Below, one piece after another: positions 42,428 to 50,683 of a DNA stretch of 64,000 nucleotides (position 1 is the stretch's first letter; the number at the start of each line of letters is the position of its first letter). The notes under the pieces were generated by a model that did not search any database, was not told where the DNA came from, and saw nothing but the letters and a program-made list of their open reading frames with translations. The DNA is from Alphaproteobacteria bacterium (GTDB lineage: Bacteria > Pseudomonadota > Alphaproteobacteria > Rhodobacterales > Rhodobacteraceae). The position numbers and the translations under genes were made by a program. The DNA lies in the NCBI GenBank assembly GCA_030425145.1, contig JAUHVK010000003.1:1-64000 (forward strand). Direction: 5' to 3'.

Positions 42428-42505
42428 AATGTAAAAAACATTCACATTACTCCTTGCAAACGAGCAGGCAAATTCCGATCTGTTCAATGTGAAAGGCATT
42501 CACAT
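42428..42505. promoter_or_regulatory. Paired CATTCACAT repeats and palindromes upstream of DUF2852 gene
   Basis: CATTCACATTAC starts at 42439 and CATTCACATCAC at 42497 (11 of 12 bases). Each lies in a palindrome: AATGT-AAAAA-ACATT (42428-42442) and ATGTGAA-AGGCA-TTCACAT (42487-42505). The copies are 58 bases apart, and the second ends 22 bases before the ATG at 42528. This looks like a two-site operator for an unknown regulator. Confidence 0.4.
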
Positions 42506-42527
42506 CACGCAAACAACGGAGTTGAAA

Positions 42528-42947
42528 ATGAGTACGATCGCCGCCCCCGCTTCTCTTCCGACCCGCATGGGTTGGTTTTCCCGCGCTGAGGCGTGGCTGG
42601 ACAACAAAGGTAAAGGTGCCTGGATCGCCGCAATGGTCCTTGGTTTCATCTTCTTCTGGCCGGTCGGTCTCGCCCTTCTCGCATACATGATCTGGAGCAA
42701 ACGCATGTTCAACAAATCCTGCAGCAGCCGCCGCATGTCCCACAAATTCGCCGCGATGCGGTCGTCCGGGAACACGGCCTTCGACGCCTACAAGAACGAA
42801 ACCCTGCGTCGCCTCGAAGAGGAGCAGGAAAACTTCGAAGCCTTCCTCAAGCGTCTGCGCGATGCCAAGGACAAGGCCGAATTCGATCAGTTCATGGACG
42901 AACGCGCCAAGGCCGCAAAGGAAAGCCGCGAAACCGAGGAAGCCTGA
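42528..42947 (+). CDS. DUF2852 protein
   Basis: 139 residues from the ATG at 42528 (MSTIAAPASLPTRMGWFSRA). One strongly hydrophobic segment (WIAAMVLGFIFFWPVGLALL) is followed by a charged, coiled-coil-like tail (NETLRRLEEEQENFEAFLKR). This is the layout of DUF2852 in alphaproteobacteria. The function is unknown. It is followed by an RDD membrane protein after 72 bases, and behind repeats that suggest specific regulation. Confidence 0.8.
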   Translation: MSTIAAPASLPTRMGWFSRAEAWLDNKGKGAWIAAMVLGFIFFWPVGLALLAYMIWSKRMFNKSCSSRRMSHKFAAMRSSGNTAFDAYKNETLRRLEEEQENFEAFLKRLRDAKDKAEFDQFMDERAKAAKESRETEEA

Positions 42948-43019
42948 TCCTTGTACACTCAACCCGTGGCCCCATATCGGGGCCACACCTCTCTCTCAGT
43001 GAAAGAACGGTATTCGACA

Positions 43020-43469
43020 ATGTACGCCACCGACACCTATCCCAATCTTCCTGACCCGATGGTCCAGCCCGAATTCTATGACAGCGTAACCATCAAGCGC
43101 GGTCTGGCCTGGCTGGTTGACGCGGTCCTGATCGCGGTCCTTCTGGTGCCCGTGGTGGTGATGACGGCGTTCATCGGAGTATTCTTCCTGCCGTTCCTGT
43201 TTTTCGTCACCGGTTTCATCTACCGCGTGGCGACGATTACCGGGCGTTCGGCCACTTGGGGCATGCGTCTGATGTCGATCGAATTCCGCGATAGCCGTGG
43301 TGAGCATTTCGACTTCAGCCAGGCATTCATGCACACACTGGGCTACACCGTGTCGATGGCAGTCTTCCCGCTGCAACTTATCTCGATCGCGATGATGTTC
43401 CTCACCGAACGGGGTCAGGGTCTGACCGACATGGTGCTTGGCACTGTCGCCATCAACCGCCGCCTTTAA
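43020..43469 (+). CDS. RDD family membrane protein
   Basis: 149 residues from the ATG at 43020 (MYATDTYPNLPDPMVQPEFY). The RDD signature reads RGLAWLVDAVLIAVLLVPVV, then GMRLMSIEFRDSRGE between hydrophobic helices and ERGQGLTDMVLGT near the end. There are three to four membrane segments. Some RDD proteins move Na+ or H+; the role here is unknown. A strong hairpin terminator follows 6 bases after the stop. Confidence 0.85.
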   Translation: MYATDTYPNLPDPMVQPEFYDSVTIKRGLAWLVDAVLIAVLLVPVVVMTAFIGVFFLPFLFFVTGFIYRVATITGRSATWGMRLMSIEFRDSRGEHFDFSQAFMHTLGYTVSMAVFPLQLISIAMMFLTERGQGLTDMVLGTVAINRRL

Positions 43470-43474
43470 GTCGT

Positions 43475-43498
43475 AGGGTGCGTGATCTCACGCACCCT
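43475..43498 (+). terminator. Hairpin terminator after RDD gene
   Basis: AGGGTGCGTGA (43475-43485) and TCACGCACCCT (43488-43498) are perfectly complementary over 11 bases, directly after the RDD stop. It separates that gene from the structured RNA region upstream of creatinase. Confidence 0.7.
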
Positions 43499-43527
43499 TC
43501 ACGAAAACCGATTGACAGACTCATCAC

Positions 43528-43662
43528 CTTTCGCCATCGAAAGCACAGATGTGCCGACGATGGCGTCGTCGGAGCAAGACCCACATCAAGCTTTCCCAAG
43601 GAAAGCGTATCGTCCTGAACGCCCGGATGTGTTGCCGGGCGTTTTGCTGTGAAGTCCCGGCA
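43528..43662 (+). ncRNA. Candidate structured leader RNA / riboswitch-like element upstream of creatinase
   Basis: A chain of perfect hairpins in 135 bases: CTTTCG-CCAT-CGAAAG (43528-43543); CCGACGA-TGGCG-TCGTCGG (43554-43572), itself enclosed by GATGTG (43548-43553) pairing with CACATC (43582-43587); CTTTCC-CAA-GGAAAG (43591-43605); and a terminator AACGCCCGG-8 nt-CCGGGCGTT plus TT (43618-43645). Alternatives exist: GAAAG 43539-43543 can pair with CTTTC 43591-43595, and TGCCGGG 43633-43639 with CCCGGCA 43656-43662, which would break the terminator. A TTGACA box lies at 43512 without a clear -10. It does not match any riboswitch I know. It could instead be a free small RNA. Confidence 0.5.
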
Positions 43663-43681
43663 GATGCACGGAGACTTTACT

Positions 43682-44899
43682 ATGTTCGATACCCCCAACC
43701 GTCCCCAGACCTTCACCTGCCACAATGGCGAAAAAGCACCCCTGCCCTTTGCGCAGGCCGAGTACGATCAGCGCGTCGCAGGTCTGCGCGCGATCATGGC
43801 CAGCCACAATCTGGATGCGGTGCTGCTCACCTCGATGCAGAACATCGCCTACTATTCAGGCTTTCTCTATTGCAGCTTCGGTCGCCCCTACGGCCTTGTC
43901 GTGACCCACGACACCTGCACCACCGTCAGCGCCAATATCGACGGCGGTCAGCCGTGGCGCAGGGCGCACTGCGACAACGTCATTTACACCGATTGGGAGC
44001 GCAACAATTACTGGCGCGCAGTCGCGGCACTGGTCGGCAACGGTCGCCGCATCGGTGTCGAAGGTGACCACCTGACGCTCGCCTCCCGTGCCACGCTGGA
44101 TGCGTTCCTGAACACGCCCGAGGTGATCGACATCGCCCCCGACACGATGCGCTCGCGCATGGTCAAGTCCCCCGCCGAAATCGCCCTGATCACCGAAGGC
44201 GCGCGCGTGGCCGATGTGGGCGGCTATGCCATCCGTGACGCCATCCGGGCCGGAGCCCGCGAGATCGACATCGCAATGGCGGGTCGCGACGCGATGGAGC
44301 TCGAGATCGCCCGCAGCTTCCCGGACAGCGAGATGCGCGACAGCTGGGTCTGGTTCCAGTCGGGCCTCAACACAGACGGCGCCCATAACCCAGTGACGAT
44401 GCGAGAACTGCAATACGGCGACATTCTCAGCCTCAACACCTTCCCGATGATCTCGGCCTATTACACCGCGCTGGAACGCACTCTGTTCCTCGGTGAACCC
44501 GACGCCGAGTCCCTCCGTATCTGGAACGCCAACGTCGCCGCGCATGAACTTGGCCTCAGCCTGATCAAACCGGGCATCTCCTGCGCCCAGATCTGCGACG
44601 AGATCAACCGCCTCTTCGCCCAGGAAAACCTGCTGCAATACCGCTCCTTCGGCTACGGTCACTCTTTCGGCATCCTCAGCCACTACTACGGCCGCGAAGC
44701 CGGTCTGGAACTGCGCGAGGATATCGACACGGTGCTGGAGCCGGGCATGGTGGTCTCCATCGAACCGATGCTCTGGATTCCGGAAGGCACGCCCGGAGCC
44801 GGTGGCTACCGCGAGCACGACATTCTGGTCGTGACCGAGGATGGGGCGACCAACATCACCGGTTTCCCGTATGGGCCGGAGCATAATGTGATCGGGTAA
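43682..44899 (+). CDS. Creatinase (creatine amidinohydrolase, M24 fold)
   Basis: 405 residues from the ATG at 43682 (MFDTPNRPQTF), with GGAG 8 bases upstream. It follows Pseudomonas creatinase closely: NIAYYSGFLYCSFGRPYGLV, SANIDGGQPWRR, SGLNTDGAHNPVT (His235 matches the catalytic histidine), YYTALERTLFL, FGYGHSFGILSHYYGREAGL, GAGGYREHDILVV. It splits creatine into sarcosine and urea in the cytoplasm. The M24 fold is shared with the DMSP lyase DddP, but the sequence is clearly of the creatinase type. It stands alone behind a terminator-containing leader. Confidence 0.9.
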   Translation: MFDTPNRPQTFTCHNGEKAPLPFAQAEYDQRVAGLRAIMASHNLDAVLLTSMQNIAYYSGFLYCSFGRPYGLVVTHDTCTTVSANIDGGQPWRRAHCDNVIYTDWERNNYWRAVAALVGNGRRIGVEGDHLTLASRATLDAFLNTPEVIDIAPDTMRSRMVKSPAEIALITEGARVADVGGYAIRDAIRAGAREIDIAMAGRDAMELEIARSFPDSEMRDSWVWFQSGLNTDGAHNPVTMRELQYGDILSLNTFPMISAYYTALERTLFLGEPDAESLRIWNANVAAHELGLSLIKPGISCAQICDEINRLFAQENLLQYRSFGYGHSFGILSHYYGREAGLELREDIDTVLEPGMVVSIEPMLWIPEGTPGAGGYREHDILVVTEDGATNITGFPYGPEHNVIG

Positions 44900-45001
44900 G
44901 ATCGCCAATCATGAGACCCGCCGTCGCGCCAGCGGCGGCGACGCGTCCACCCGCCCCAAGGCGGGCGCGTTCCGCGCCCACCCGGGCGCACGCTTGCACT
45001 A

Positions 45002-45253
45002 TTAACTTGCCGCGCTCGACGATTGCGATGGCAACTTTCCATCCCGATACCACGCCAGCACGTAGACCCGGATCGCCGAGGCCAACCCGACCTCGATGTC
45101 CCGCTCTTCGTCGATCTCCGCTGCAAGCGCGTTGATCGGCATATCCCGCGCCTCGGCAATGTCTCGAAACGCACGCCAGAACGCATCCTCAAGGGACACG
45201 CTGGTGCGATGCCCCCGCAGGGTCAGTGACCGTTTCACGGGCCGTCCGCTCAT
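45002..45253 (-). CDS. Ribbon-helix-helix domain protein
   Basis: 83 residues. The core RSLTLRGHRTSVSLEDAFWR, then AFRDIAEARDMPINALAAEI, matches the RHH_4-type domain found as short proteins in alphaproteobacteria. These are presumed DNA-binding dimers; no target is known. Its ATG overlaps the stop of the upstream DUF4169 gene by 4 bases (ATGA). Confidence 0.8.
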   Translation of the reverse strand: MSGRPVKRSLTLRGHRTSVSLEDAFWRAFRDIAEARDMPINALAAEIDEERDIEVGLASAIRVYVLAWYRDGKLPSQSSSAAS

Positions 45254-45423
45254 GTGGTGGATTTGCCGTCCAGATCGCGCTTGGCCTTCTCGGCCTGCGC
45301 TTTCTCCAACGCCTTCTGCGCCTTCGTCCGCCCGAACTTCACAGCATTCTCATCCGCTTGGGCGCGTTTGTCGGCCCGCGCTTTGGTCTTGCGAAACTGG
45401 TTGAGGTTGGTGACGTTGCTCAT
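45250..45423 (-). CDS. DUF4169 small protein
   Basis: 57 residues from the ATG at 45423 (MSNVTNLNQFRKTKARADKR), rich in Lys, Arg, Ala and Glu, ending KRDLDGKSTT. The start NLNQFRKTKAR is the mark of DUF4169, which in Rhodobacterales commonly precedes a ribbon-helix-helix gene as it does here. The length is normal for the family. The function is unknown. The upstream methyltransferase gene ends 57 bases before. Confidence 0.8.
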   Translation of the reverse strand: MSNVTNLNQFRKTKARADKRAQADENAVKFGRTKAQKALEKAQAEKAKRDLDGKSTT

Positions 45424-45480
45424 ACGCTGATCCTGACACTCCGCCTGCAGGAATTCCAGCCTTTCCCGCCGCGCATCAAC

Positions 45481-46248
45481 TCAAACCGGCTTTCTCAGCA
45501 CCCAGACCTGTTCACTCGGATAGTCCCGCGCCCAGTCCAATGATACGAAAGGCGGTGCTTCTTTCGCCCCCTCCGGCGCATAAAGCTCGTGGTAATTTTC
45601 CACCGCAAAACCGATTTCGCGAAACAGCGCGACCCAGTCCGCCATGGTCAGGTTGAAGGTAACCCCGCTCGGGTCAATCTCCACCTCGGTCCAATCCGCA
45701 CCCCACATGCCGCGATAGGACCGATGCAGCACCCGATCACTGGGTGCACCATTCATTGGCGTGCAGACCAACAACAAAGGATGGTTGCCCAGAAACACCA
45801 ACTGCCCACCGGGCCGCAACAGCCGCCACGCCTCGCGCAGCCAGACCTCCGGTCGACACCAGATAGCAGCGCCATATTCGGAGATGGCAAAGTCGAACGC
45901 CGCATCCGGCAAGCCCGTTGCCTCAGCATTGCCTTCCAGAAAGTTGATTTCGGCACCGTTTTCCGTTGCCAGCCGACGCGCTGTGGTCAATTGCCCCGCG
46001 GACACGTCGATCGCCGTCACCCTCGCACCCCGCCGCGCCAACCAGCCCGAGACATAGCCGGTTCCGCAGCCCAGCTCGATGGCATCTTGGCCCGTCAGGT
46101 CATCCGGCAACAGCCGCAGCGCGCTATCGGGCACATTCCAGATGCCCCATTGCGGGTCAGAGGACCAGAGCCTCTCCCCCAGAGCAACCCAGTTCTTGGC
46201 ATCGGCCTCCCAGACGCCGCGATTGACGGAAATATGGTCATTGGTCAT
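45481..46248 (-). CDS. Class I SAM-dependent methyltransferase
   Basis: 255 residues. The SAM site reads AIELGCGTGYVSGWLARRGA, followed by VTAIDVSAGQLTTAR and the acidic/aromatic motif AAFDFAISEYGAAIW. The family is UbiE/Methyltransf_11-like, acting on small molecules; the substrate is unknown. Between it and fumC (46249-46357) no gene is seen. Confidence 0.85.
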   Translation of the reverse strand: MTNDHISVNRGVWEADAKNWVALGERLWSSDPQWGIWNVPDSALRLLPDDLTGQDAIELGCGTGYVSGWLARRGARVTAIDVSAGQLTTARRLATENGAEINFLEGNAEATGLPDAAFDFAISEYGAAIWCRPEVWLREAWRLLRPGGQLVFLGNHPLLLVCTPMNGAPSDRVLHRSYRGMWGADWTEVEIDPSGVTFNLTMADWVALFREIGFAVENYHELYAPEGAKEAPPFVSLDWARDYPSEQVWVLRKPV

Positions 46249-50247: not shown

Positions 50248-50279
50248 GTGAAGATCGAACTGTACTGATTTGAAAATGC

Positions 50280-50600
50280 AGGCTTCTGTTGCCAGGTGCC
50301 TGCGAACCCCGCCTTACGCGGCTAGGCGCAAGGGCTTAAAGATCGGTAGATCCGACTGCTTACGCAGCCATTGCCACCGGAGCATGGTTGTCATTTGCAA
50401 CTATACTGTTTGAACCGATAACGGTGGTATCTCACCGGGACAAAGCTAACGTGTTTAGACGTTCGTCGATCCTGTTTCGGCCCCATGGTCCTGCAAATGA
50501 CAGGGTGTTGGTGGAGCCGCCGGGTACCGCCCCCGGGTCCGAGCCGCTTATTGAACGCGCGTTTATGTCCATAGTCCCCGAGGGGACATGACGAATATCG
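50280..50600 (-). ncRNA. ssrA: Transfer-messenger RNA, circularly permuted two-piece form
   Basis: On the minus strand the acceptor piece comes first (about 50600-50509), ending CGGCTCC plus ACCA (50519-50509). After a 24-base intervening segment, the coding piece begins GGGGCCG (50484-50478), which pairs with the acceptor strand with one GU, then AAACAGGATCGACG, the usual tmRNA 5' region. The tag frame at 50398-50360 reads ANDNHAPVAMAA and stop. A hairpin GCAGGC/GCCTGC plus ATTTTC near 50303-50277 ends the gene. This order (3' half before 5' half) is the permuted form of alphaproteobacteria. The outer ends are approximate. The remaining gap 50601-50683 shows nothing. Confidence 0.92.
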
Positions 50601-50683
50601 GGGTTTCGCGGCGCGAATTCAAGGGGCATCTGGCGTAATCGCACAAGCTGGCGCATGATGCCCTCAGCAAGAGGATCAAGCCA

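Follow-up and report, generated by a model that had tools for sequence, protein, structure and literature searches.

What does the hairpin-rich DNA immediately upstream of a creatinase gene in the alphaproteobacterial genus Marivita encode, and does it control that gene? We addressed this question in a 64,000-nt stretch of DNA (the window; forward strand of contig JAUHVK010000003.1, assembly GCA_030425145.1), in which a sequence-only reading had proposed a metabolite riboswitch with creatine or another guanidino compound as ligand or, as the alternative, a free-standing small RNA.

A folded leader precedes the creatinase gene

The gene starting at ATG 43682 has three creatine amidinohydrolases as its top PDB matches (best 1CHM, E 3e-159), which confirms its earlier naming as creatinase, and a Pfam search identified the gene on the 5' side of the leader as encoding an RDD-domain protein. 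Proteins were identified by PDB and Pfam searches in place of NCBIfam, which returned nothing above cut-off for the creatinase, amidinotransferase, EamA, serine hydrolase and truncated (cut-off) SDR proteins and no match of any kind for the RDD protein. Elsewhere in the window, a tmRNA of the alphaproteobacterial type lies at 50275-50626 on the reverse strand, where a permuted-tmRNA family also matches. The leader and its gene comprise the following features, all on the forward strand.

43512..43517, + strand: putative -35 box TTGACA of the leader's own promoter; invariant in 13 of 13 Marivita
43548..43587, + strand: P1, outer stem GATGTG/CACATC (43548-43553 with 43582-43587); MFE fold and Marivita, differing in other leaders
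43554..43572, + strand: P2, hairpin CCGACGA-UGGCG-UCGUCGG with loop UGGCG, candidate aptamer core; covariation, unguided RNAalifold and covariance model
43590..43606, + strand: P3, linker hairpin GCTTTCC-CAA-GGAAAGC; MFE fold
43612..43628, + strand: P4, hairpin GUCC-UGAACGCCC-GGAU; covariation, and present in the MFE fold of the 85-nt transcript
43617..43645, + strand: expression-platform hairpin (weak terminator) with CCGGGCG arm and TTTT tail; MFE fold, the 5' arm overlapping the P4 loop and P4 3' strand
43633..43662, + strand: alternative pairing of TGCCGGG (43633-43639) with CCCGGCA (43656-43662); sequence and Marivita conservation
43649..43680, + strand: P5, hairpin GTGAAGTCCCGGC.../...CGGAGACTTTAC covering the ribosome-binding GGAG (43670-43673); MFE folds
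43682..44899, + strand: creatinase (creatine amidinohydrolase, M24 family), the presumed regulated gene; PDB 1CHM, 7YTO and 1KP0 at E <= 2.4e-148, Pfam Creatinase_N and Peptidase_M24

All stems named by the sequence-only reading were found in place, including GAAAG 43539-43543 with CTTTC 43591-43595. The segment 43512-43681 has a folding energy of -68.3 kcal/mol (z -4.8), and none of 200 dinucleotide shuffles is equally stable; 43539-43646 is likewise more stable than any of 200 shuffles (z -3.9). Transcription of the leader probably starts from a promoter of its own, because TTGAC occurs 30-70 nt upstream of P2, mostly at 40-59 nt, in 45 of 172 non-redundant leaders, where shuffles predict 4.5; a consensus promoter scan of 42500-46000 found no -35/-10 pair.

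The leader is conserved within Marivita

BLASTN with the leader matched 13 of the 17 genomes of the genus, the window's own counted, and none of the 44 genomes outside it in the set of relatives. Among the four genus genomes left unmatched, G015 has no creatinase match, and in G002 a contig end interrupts the close creatinase copy and a second copy, at 59% identity, lacks the P2/P4 motif described below; G005 and G007 encode creatinases at 70% and 68% identity whose leaders both carry it. Across the 13 Marivita leaders there is almost no variation between GATGTG (43548) and GGGCGTT; TTGACA precedes this block at an almost fixed distance, and the sequence upstream of TTGACA varies. The GCTTTC and GAAAGC arms of P3 are constant around a variable loop in these leaders, and P3 was not found by eye in the linkers of other genera.

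Comparison within the genus also separated the pairings originally proposed for this region. TGCCGGG is present in 13 of 13 congeners and CCCGGC lies downstream in 12 of 13. We rejected the competing GAAAG:CTTTC switch: CTTTC is present in 13 of 13 congeners and GAAAG in 4, and GAAAG precedes the inferred transcript start. For the predicted U-tract terminator, the hairpin was recovered at 43617-43645; its U-tract is only TTTTG in the window, where the terminator scan does not list it, and across the 13 genomes TTTT or longer is found in 8 and an interrupted tract in 5.

Two covarying hairpins form the shared core

We searched 295 genomes of the family for creatinase, which is present in 199 at E <= 1e-60, and took 30 loci, the window and the next 29 best (L028-L056), by protein score alone. 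The motif lies 5' of creatinase in 29 of the 30, L053 being the one without it, and L033 is the most divergent of the 29 at 30.2 bits. These leaders share a P2 stem capped by GA-UGGCG-UC, a variable linker, and a P4 that typically reads GUCC-UGNACGCCS-GGAY; measured from GATGGCGTC to CCTG, the linker spans 23-54 nt in the 158 sequences with enough flank. P1 was considered as a general outer stem and set aside as lineage-specific, its native duplexes averaging -13.8 kcal/mol versus -12.1 kcal/mol with mismatched partners (158 sequences).

In the 29 sequences, 95.4% of pair cells hold standard pairs, many of them invariant. Two-sided changes fill 39 cells versus a shuffled mean of 11.7 (0/500), in both stems, and this signal is lost once the partners are slid; unguided RNAalifold on the same sequences returns the P2 and P4 stems. 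A larger set was assembled from 161 candidates, reduced to 99 non-redundant sequences and then to 96 by removing L121, L148 and L174 before the alignment and the model were made. It holds 120 two-sided cells versus 43.6 (0/500), to be read with the fact that 74 of the 96 sequences come from a pattern in which loops and closing pairs are fixed, so that only the outer pairs are informative there. The covariance model matches the window at 43551-43631 with 50.7 bits (E 4.6e-11), the window sequence being part of its training set. Covarying base pairs across related genomes, which the sequence-only reading had suggested looking for, are present in both the P2 and the P4 stem, and the core is this hairpin pair, a different core from the one first drawn.

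The loops of the two hairpins are themselves complementary, GGCG of P2 (43562-43565) matching CGCC of P4 (43620-43623). These loop-loop pairs are invariant in the 29- and 96-sequence sets and so lie beyond a test by covariation; the invariance is consistent with, and not proof of, a kissing contact that P2 and P4 could make. P2 also contains the conserved ATG of GATGGCGTC, from which a leader-peptide attenuator might start. The ATG is invariant, though partly fixed by the search patterns; linker lengths are spread evenly over the three frames (54, 55 and 49 of 158), so that no reading frame to P4 is kept, and the stems flanking the ATG covary as an RNA helix. We rejected this explanation as scarcely credible.

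Rfam 15 contains no family that reaches its gathering score over the motif, either in the window or in 20 loci, and a search of window 43460-43720 up to E 10 returned unrelated sub-threshold families, none of them a guanidine family. This agrees with the earlier remark that no known class was recognisable here.

The motif recurs before creatinase and a few other genes

Named GTDB genomes scanned with a strict pattern yielded a sample of at least 121 sites in at least 118 stretches; here and below, gene associations rest on the genes adjoining each site. Among the matches listed, the next gene is creatinase at at least 99 of the 121 sites (a few open reading frames being partial), an EamA transporter at at least 9, L-arginine:glycine amidinotransferase at at least 4 (Shimia, Phaeobacter italicus, Pelagimonas and Candidatus Rhodobacter lobularis; identified by PDB 1JDX, E 5e-84) and an SDR or serine hydrolase at at least 3 (L104, L140 and L174); at at least 4 it runs beyond the stretch. 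Two unlinked pattern matches (L121 and L148) were treated as chance. Also among the matches listed, Shimia and P. italicus carry the motif before both creatinase and amidinotransferase, and creatinase is the next gene outside Rhodobacteraceae in Thalassospira profundimaris and a SAR116 genome, as well as in Rhizobiaceae and Hyphomicrobiales MAGs and in Granulosicoccus and other gammaproteobacterial MAGs, where binning errors are possible. The pattern scan of a viral collection gave 0 matches.

The covariance model found a match at E <= 0.01 in 208 of the 295 family genomes, the weakest of which may be chance. At E <= 1e-4 it matched 12 of 385 genomes in a sample of the class, 7 of them outside the family and in 5 families; in the phylum sample it matched 24 of 398, all in the window's class and 20 in its family, so that this sample lends no support to the motif outside the class. 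Creatinase is the next gene at all 29 distinct loci from the class and phylum samples, the window's own included. We also inspected 20 extra stretches at other model matches: EamA follows in 13 (L261, whose contig is as long as that of L073, is probably the same site), a shortened creatinase in 2, an SDR plus serine hydrolase in 1 and a Rieske oxygenase in 1, and three matches with no relevant gene behind them (L258, L259 and L270) were treated as chance. The neighbours of 11 EamA loci revealed no shared operon, many of the open reading frames listed there being spurious.

Several of these loci have individual features. The SDR behind the motif in L264 (reverse strand) and L174 is 7-alpha-hydroxysteroid dehydrogenase-like, and a beta-lactamase-fold serine hydrolase stands behind the motif in L264, L104 (663-2596) and L140 (1976-3834); by eye, the interval between motif and hydrolase in L104 resembles an SDR remnant. 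The Rieske oxygenase of L251 has a VanA-type C-terminal domain. Behind the motif in L260 and L265, only the C-terminal or the N-terminal part of creatinase matches, which suggests decay of the gene behind an intact leader. L206 and L209 (genomes G113 and G240) each hold creatinase and amidinotransferase genes close together and convergent, both leaders carrying the motif.

We found amidinotransferase in 47 of 248 family genomes. The motif is present at 8 of the 30 best loci and absent at 22, which include the copy in the window's own genome (L215). In other families of the class we compared 20 creatinases: the motif accompanies the 3 at >=68% identity and is absent from the 17 at <=62%; judged by these identities, the element seems to mark one creatinase lineage.

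This distribution bears on whether P2 and P4 might be a site for an RNA-binding protein, or be held by a trans-acting small RNA, that senses guanidino or nitrogen status, with no metabolite bound by the RNA itself. Short invariant loops and small size would suit such a site. The motif occurs, however, in several families and before unlinked genes, and the mutual complementarity of its loops is what an intramolecular contact would lead one to expect; we regard a protein site as unlikely.

P4 is predicted to compete with downstream pairings

In the window, P4 and the downstream hairpin CGCCCGG...CCGGGCG overlap and are mutually exclusive, the P4 loop and 3' strand sharing ACGCCCGG with the 5' arm of that hairpin. 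When the transcript is lengthened stepwise in MFE folding, as opposed to a kinetic simulation, P4 is present at 85 nt and the downstream hairpin has taken its place in the 92- and 100-nt folds.

In 188 leaders, the P4 3' strand pairs with downstream leader sequence at a mean of 0.740, versus 0.630 in shuffles (Wilcoxon p 7e-11), and competing pairing exceeds 0.5 in 165 of 188 leaders versus 166 of 188 shuffle means. For anti-SD pairing we used 131 of the 188, omitting 6 long leaders, 50 redundant ones and 1 that was too short. The duplex that the P4 3' strand, extended by the bases after it, forms with the SD region averages -7.31 kcal/mol, versus -5.73 kcal/mol shuffled (p 2e-7) and -6.52 kcal/mol with the SD regions of other leaders (p 1e-3), and falls below its own shuffle mean in 84 of the 131. 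The shifts in these averages are real but modest.

Expression platforms vary between leaders. In L054 and L055, the P4 3' strand continues into an anti-SD, GGGACCUU with AAGGAGGGUC. The downstream sequence GGGACUUUCAAUCGGGAGAUUG is nearly the same in L048, a creatinase leader, and L207, an amidinotransferase leader, which suggests that the two kinds of leader may be regulated with the same sign. A very similar ACUUUCAAUCGGGAGAUUG follows P4 in the amidinotransferase leaders L204-L207, L209 and L210 and in the creatinase leaders L048 and L052, and is possibly a common expression platform.

Could the region instead be a transcription terminator, a free-standing small RNA of about 100 nt between the RDD gene and creatinase, or both, with no effect on creatinase? 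Its promoter-like -35 box and stable hairpins ending in TTTT would fit. TTTT is found 8-70 nt after P4 in only 36 of 188 leaders, however, and the motif stays before creatinase in 29 of 30 loci, yet the leader has no BLASTN match in the 44 genomes outside the genus. Because the motif keeps the same genes while the surrounding intergenic DNA has become too diverged for BLASTN, a free-standing small RNA is the less likely reading, and we consider this explanation as a whole very improbable.

A proposed model for ligand-dependent activation of creatinase

Conserved, covarying P2 and P4 hairpins, cis linkage to creatinase and, in the window's folds, mutually exclusive pairings characterise this leader. 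A metabolite riboswitch with a creatine or other guanidino ligand, as initially guessed, is the best-supported reading, in view of the covariation, the linkage to creatinase and in a minority to amidinotransferase, and the lack of an Rfam match; kiss, ligand and ON sign are what we infer from these observations. We conclude that the leader of the creatinase mRNA probably carries a small riboswitch-type aptamer that would respond to a guanidino acid and turn creatinase on.

Creatine is the substrate of creatinase, and guanidinoacetate is the product of glycine amidinotransferase or, in the reverse reaction, its substrate. Because the two enzymes handle these compounds, creatine or guanidinoacetate is the natural guess for the ligand. 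Its binding would stabilise the P2-P4 loop-loop kiss (GGCG:CGCC, perhaps extended by a U:A pair) and with it the P4 stem. A stable P4 would exclude the downstream weak-terminator hairpin and leave CCGGG free to pair with the downstream CCCGG, which would open P5, expose the ribosome site GGAG and allow creatinase to be made. With no ligand bound, the downstream hairpin and P5 would form and expression would be low. Since locking P4 would both keep the weak terminator from forming and expose the ribosome site, the arrangement would act as an ON switch. Transport or conversion of such a compound would fit the EamA, SDR, serine hydrolase and Rieske genes, though these do not identify it as creatine.

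Taken together, we lean towards an undescribed class for creatine or guanidinoacetate, a two-hairpin kissing aptamer at creatinase, glycine amidinotransferase and EamA exporter genes of alpha- and some gammaproteobacteria. In the open-licence PMC literature we found no RNA element reported at creatinase or amidinotransferase genes (reports elsewhere are possible), and we know of no other natural RNA sensor of creatine metabolism. If confirmed, the element would reveal the means by which these bacteria sense creatine or guanidinoacetate, provide a compact RNA part for creatine biosensing, and offer clues to what the EamA, SDR and hydrolase genes behind the same kind of leader do.

Comparison with known systems

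The hairpin loops of guanidine-II are ACGR, whereas those of the creatinase leader are UGGCG and UGNACGCCS; P2 and P4 are not the two similar ACGR-loop hairpins that define RF01068, and they have no covariance-model match to it. Guanidine-II (mini-ykkC, RF01068) is described as a pair of small hairpins with loops proposed to kiss upon binding of a guanidino-type ligand (PMC7266159, PMC7544219, PMC9300104, PMC9094411). The creatinase leader resembles it in having two small hairpins with loops able to kiss, a contact that is predicted here. The mini-ykkC hairpins are called identical in PMC7266159, whereas P2 and P4 differ from each other, and unlike guanidine-II the creatinase leaders match no Rfam family and precede different genes. 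That the element might be a variant of a known guanidine riboswitch, binding guanidinium itself, would suit the general layout of two hairpins with interacting loops and the association with two enzymes of guanidino compounds. The loops are nonetheless unlike ACGR, and no Rfam guanidine family matched the window segment up to E 10 or the 20 loci at gathering score, and we hold this quite improbable. If the creatinase element is confirmed, a kissing layout of two hairpins, as in guanidine-II, may have evolved repeatedly for guanidino ligands.

A protein can also regulate how bacteria use creatine: in PMC8864220, AmtR is reported to control creatine genes in Corynebacterium glutamicum. The two systems are alike in what they would regulate, and differ in that AmtR is a protein transcription regulator and the creatinase leader an RNA.

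Unlike known metabolite riboswitches, the creatinase leader is matched by no Rfam 15 class. Like metabolite riboswitches generally, it is a leader RNA with a conserved structure ahead of a metabolic gene, and the terminator-like or SD-covering hairpins that come next exclude P4 in the folds of the window and may do so in other leaders. Its conserved, covarying 5'-leader structure recurs before metabolic genes in several families. The element is on these grounds a strong and directly testable candidate for a new riboswitch class, one with an obvious small set of ligands.
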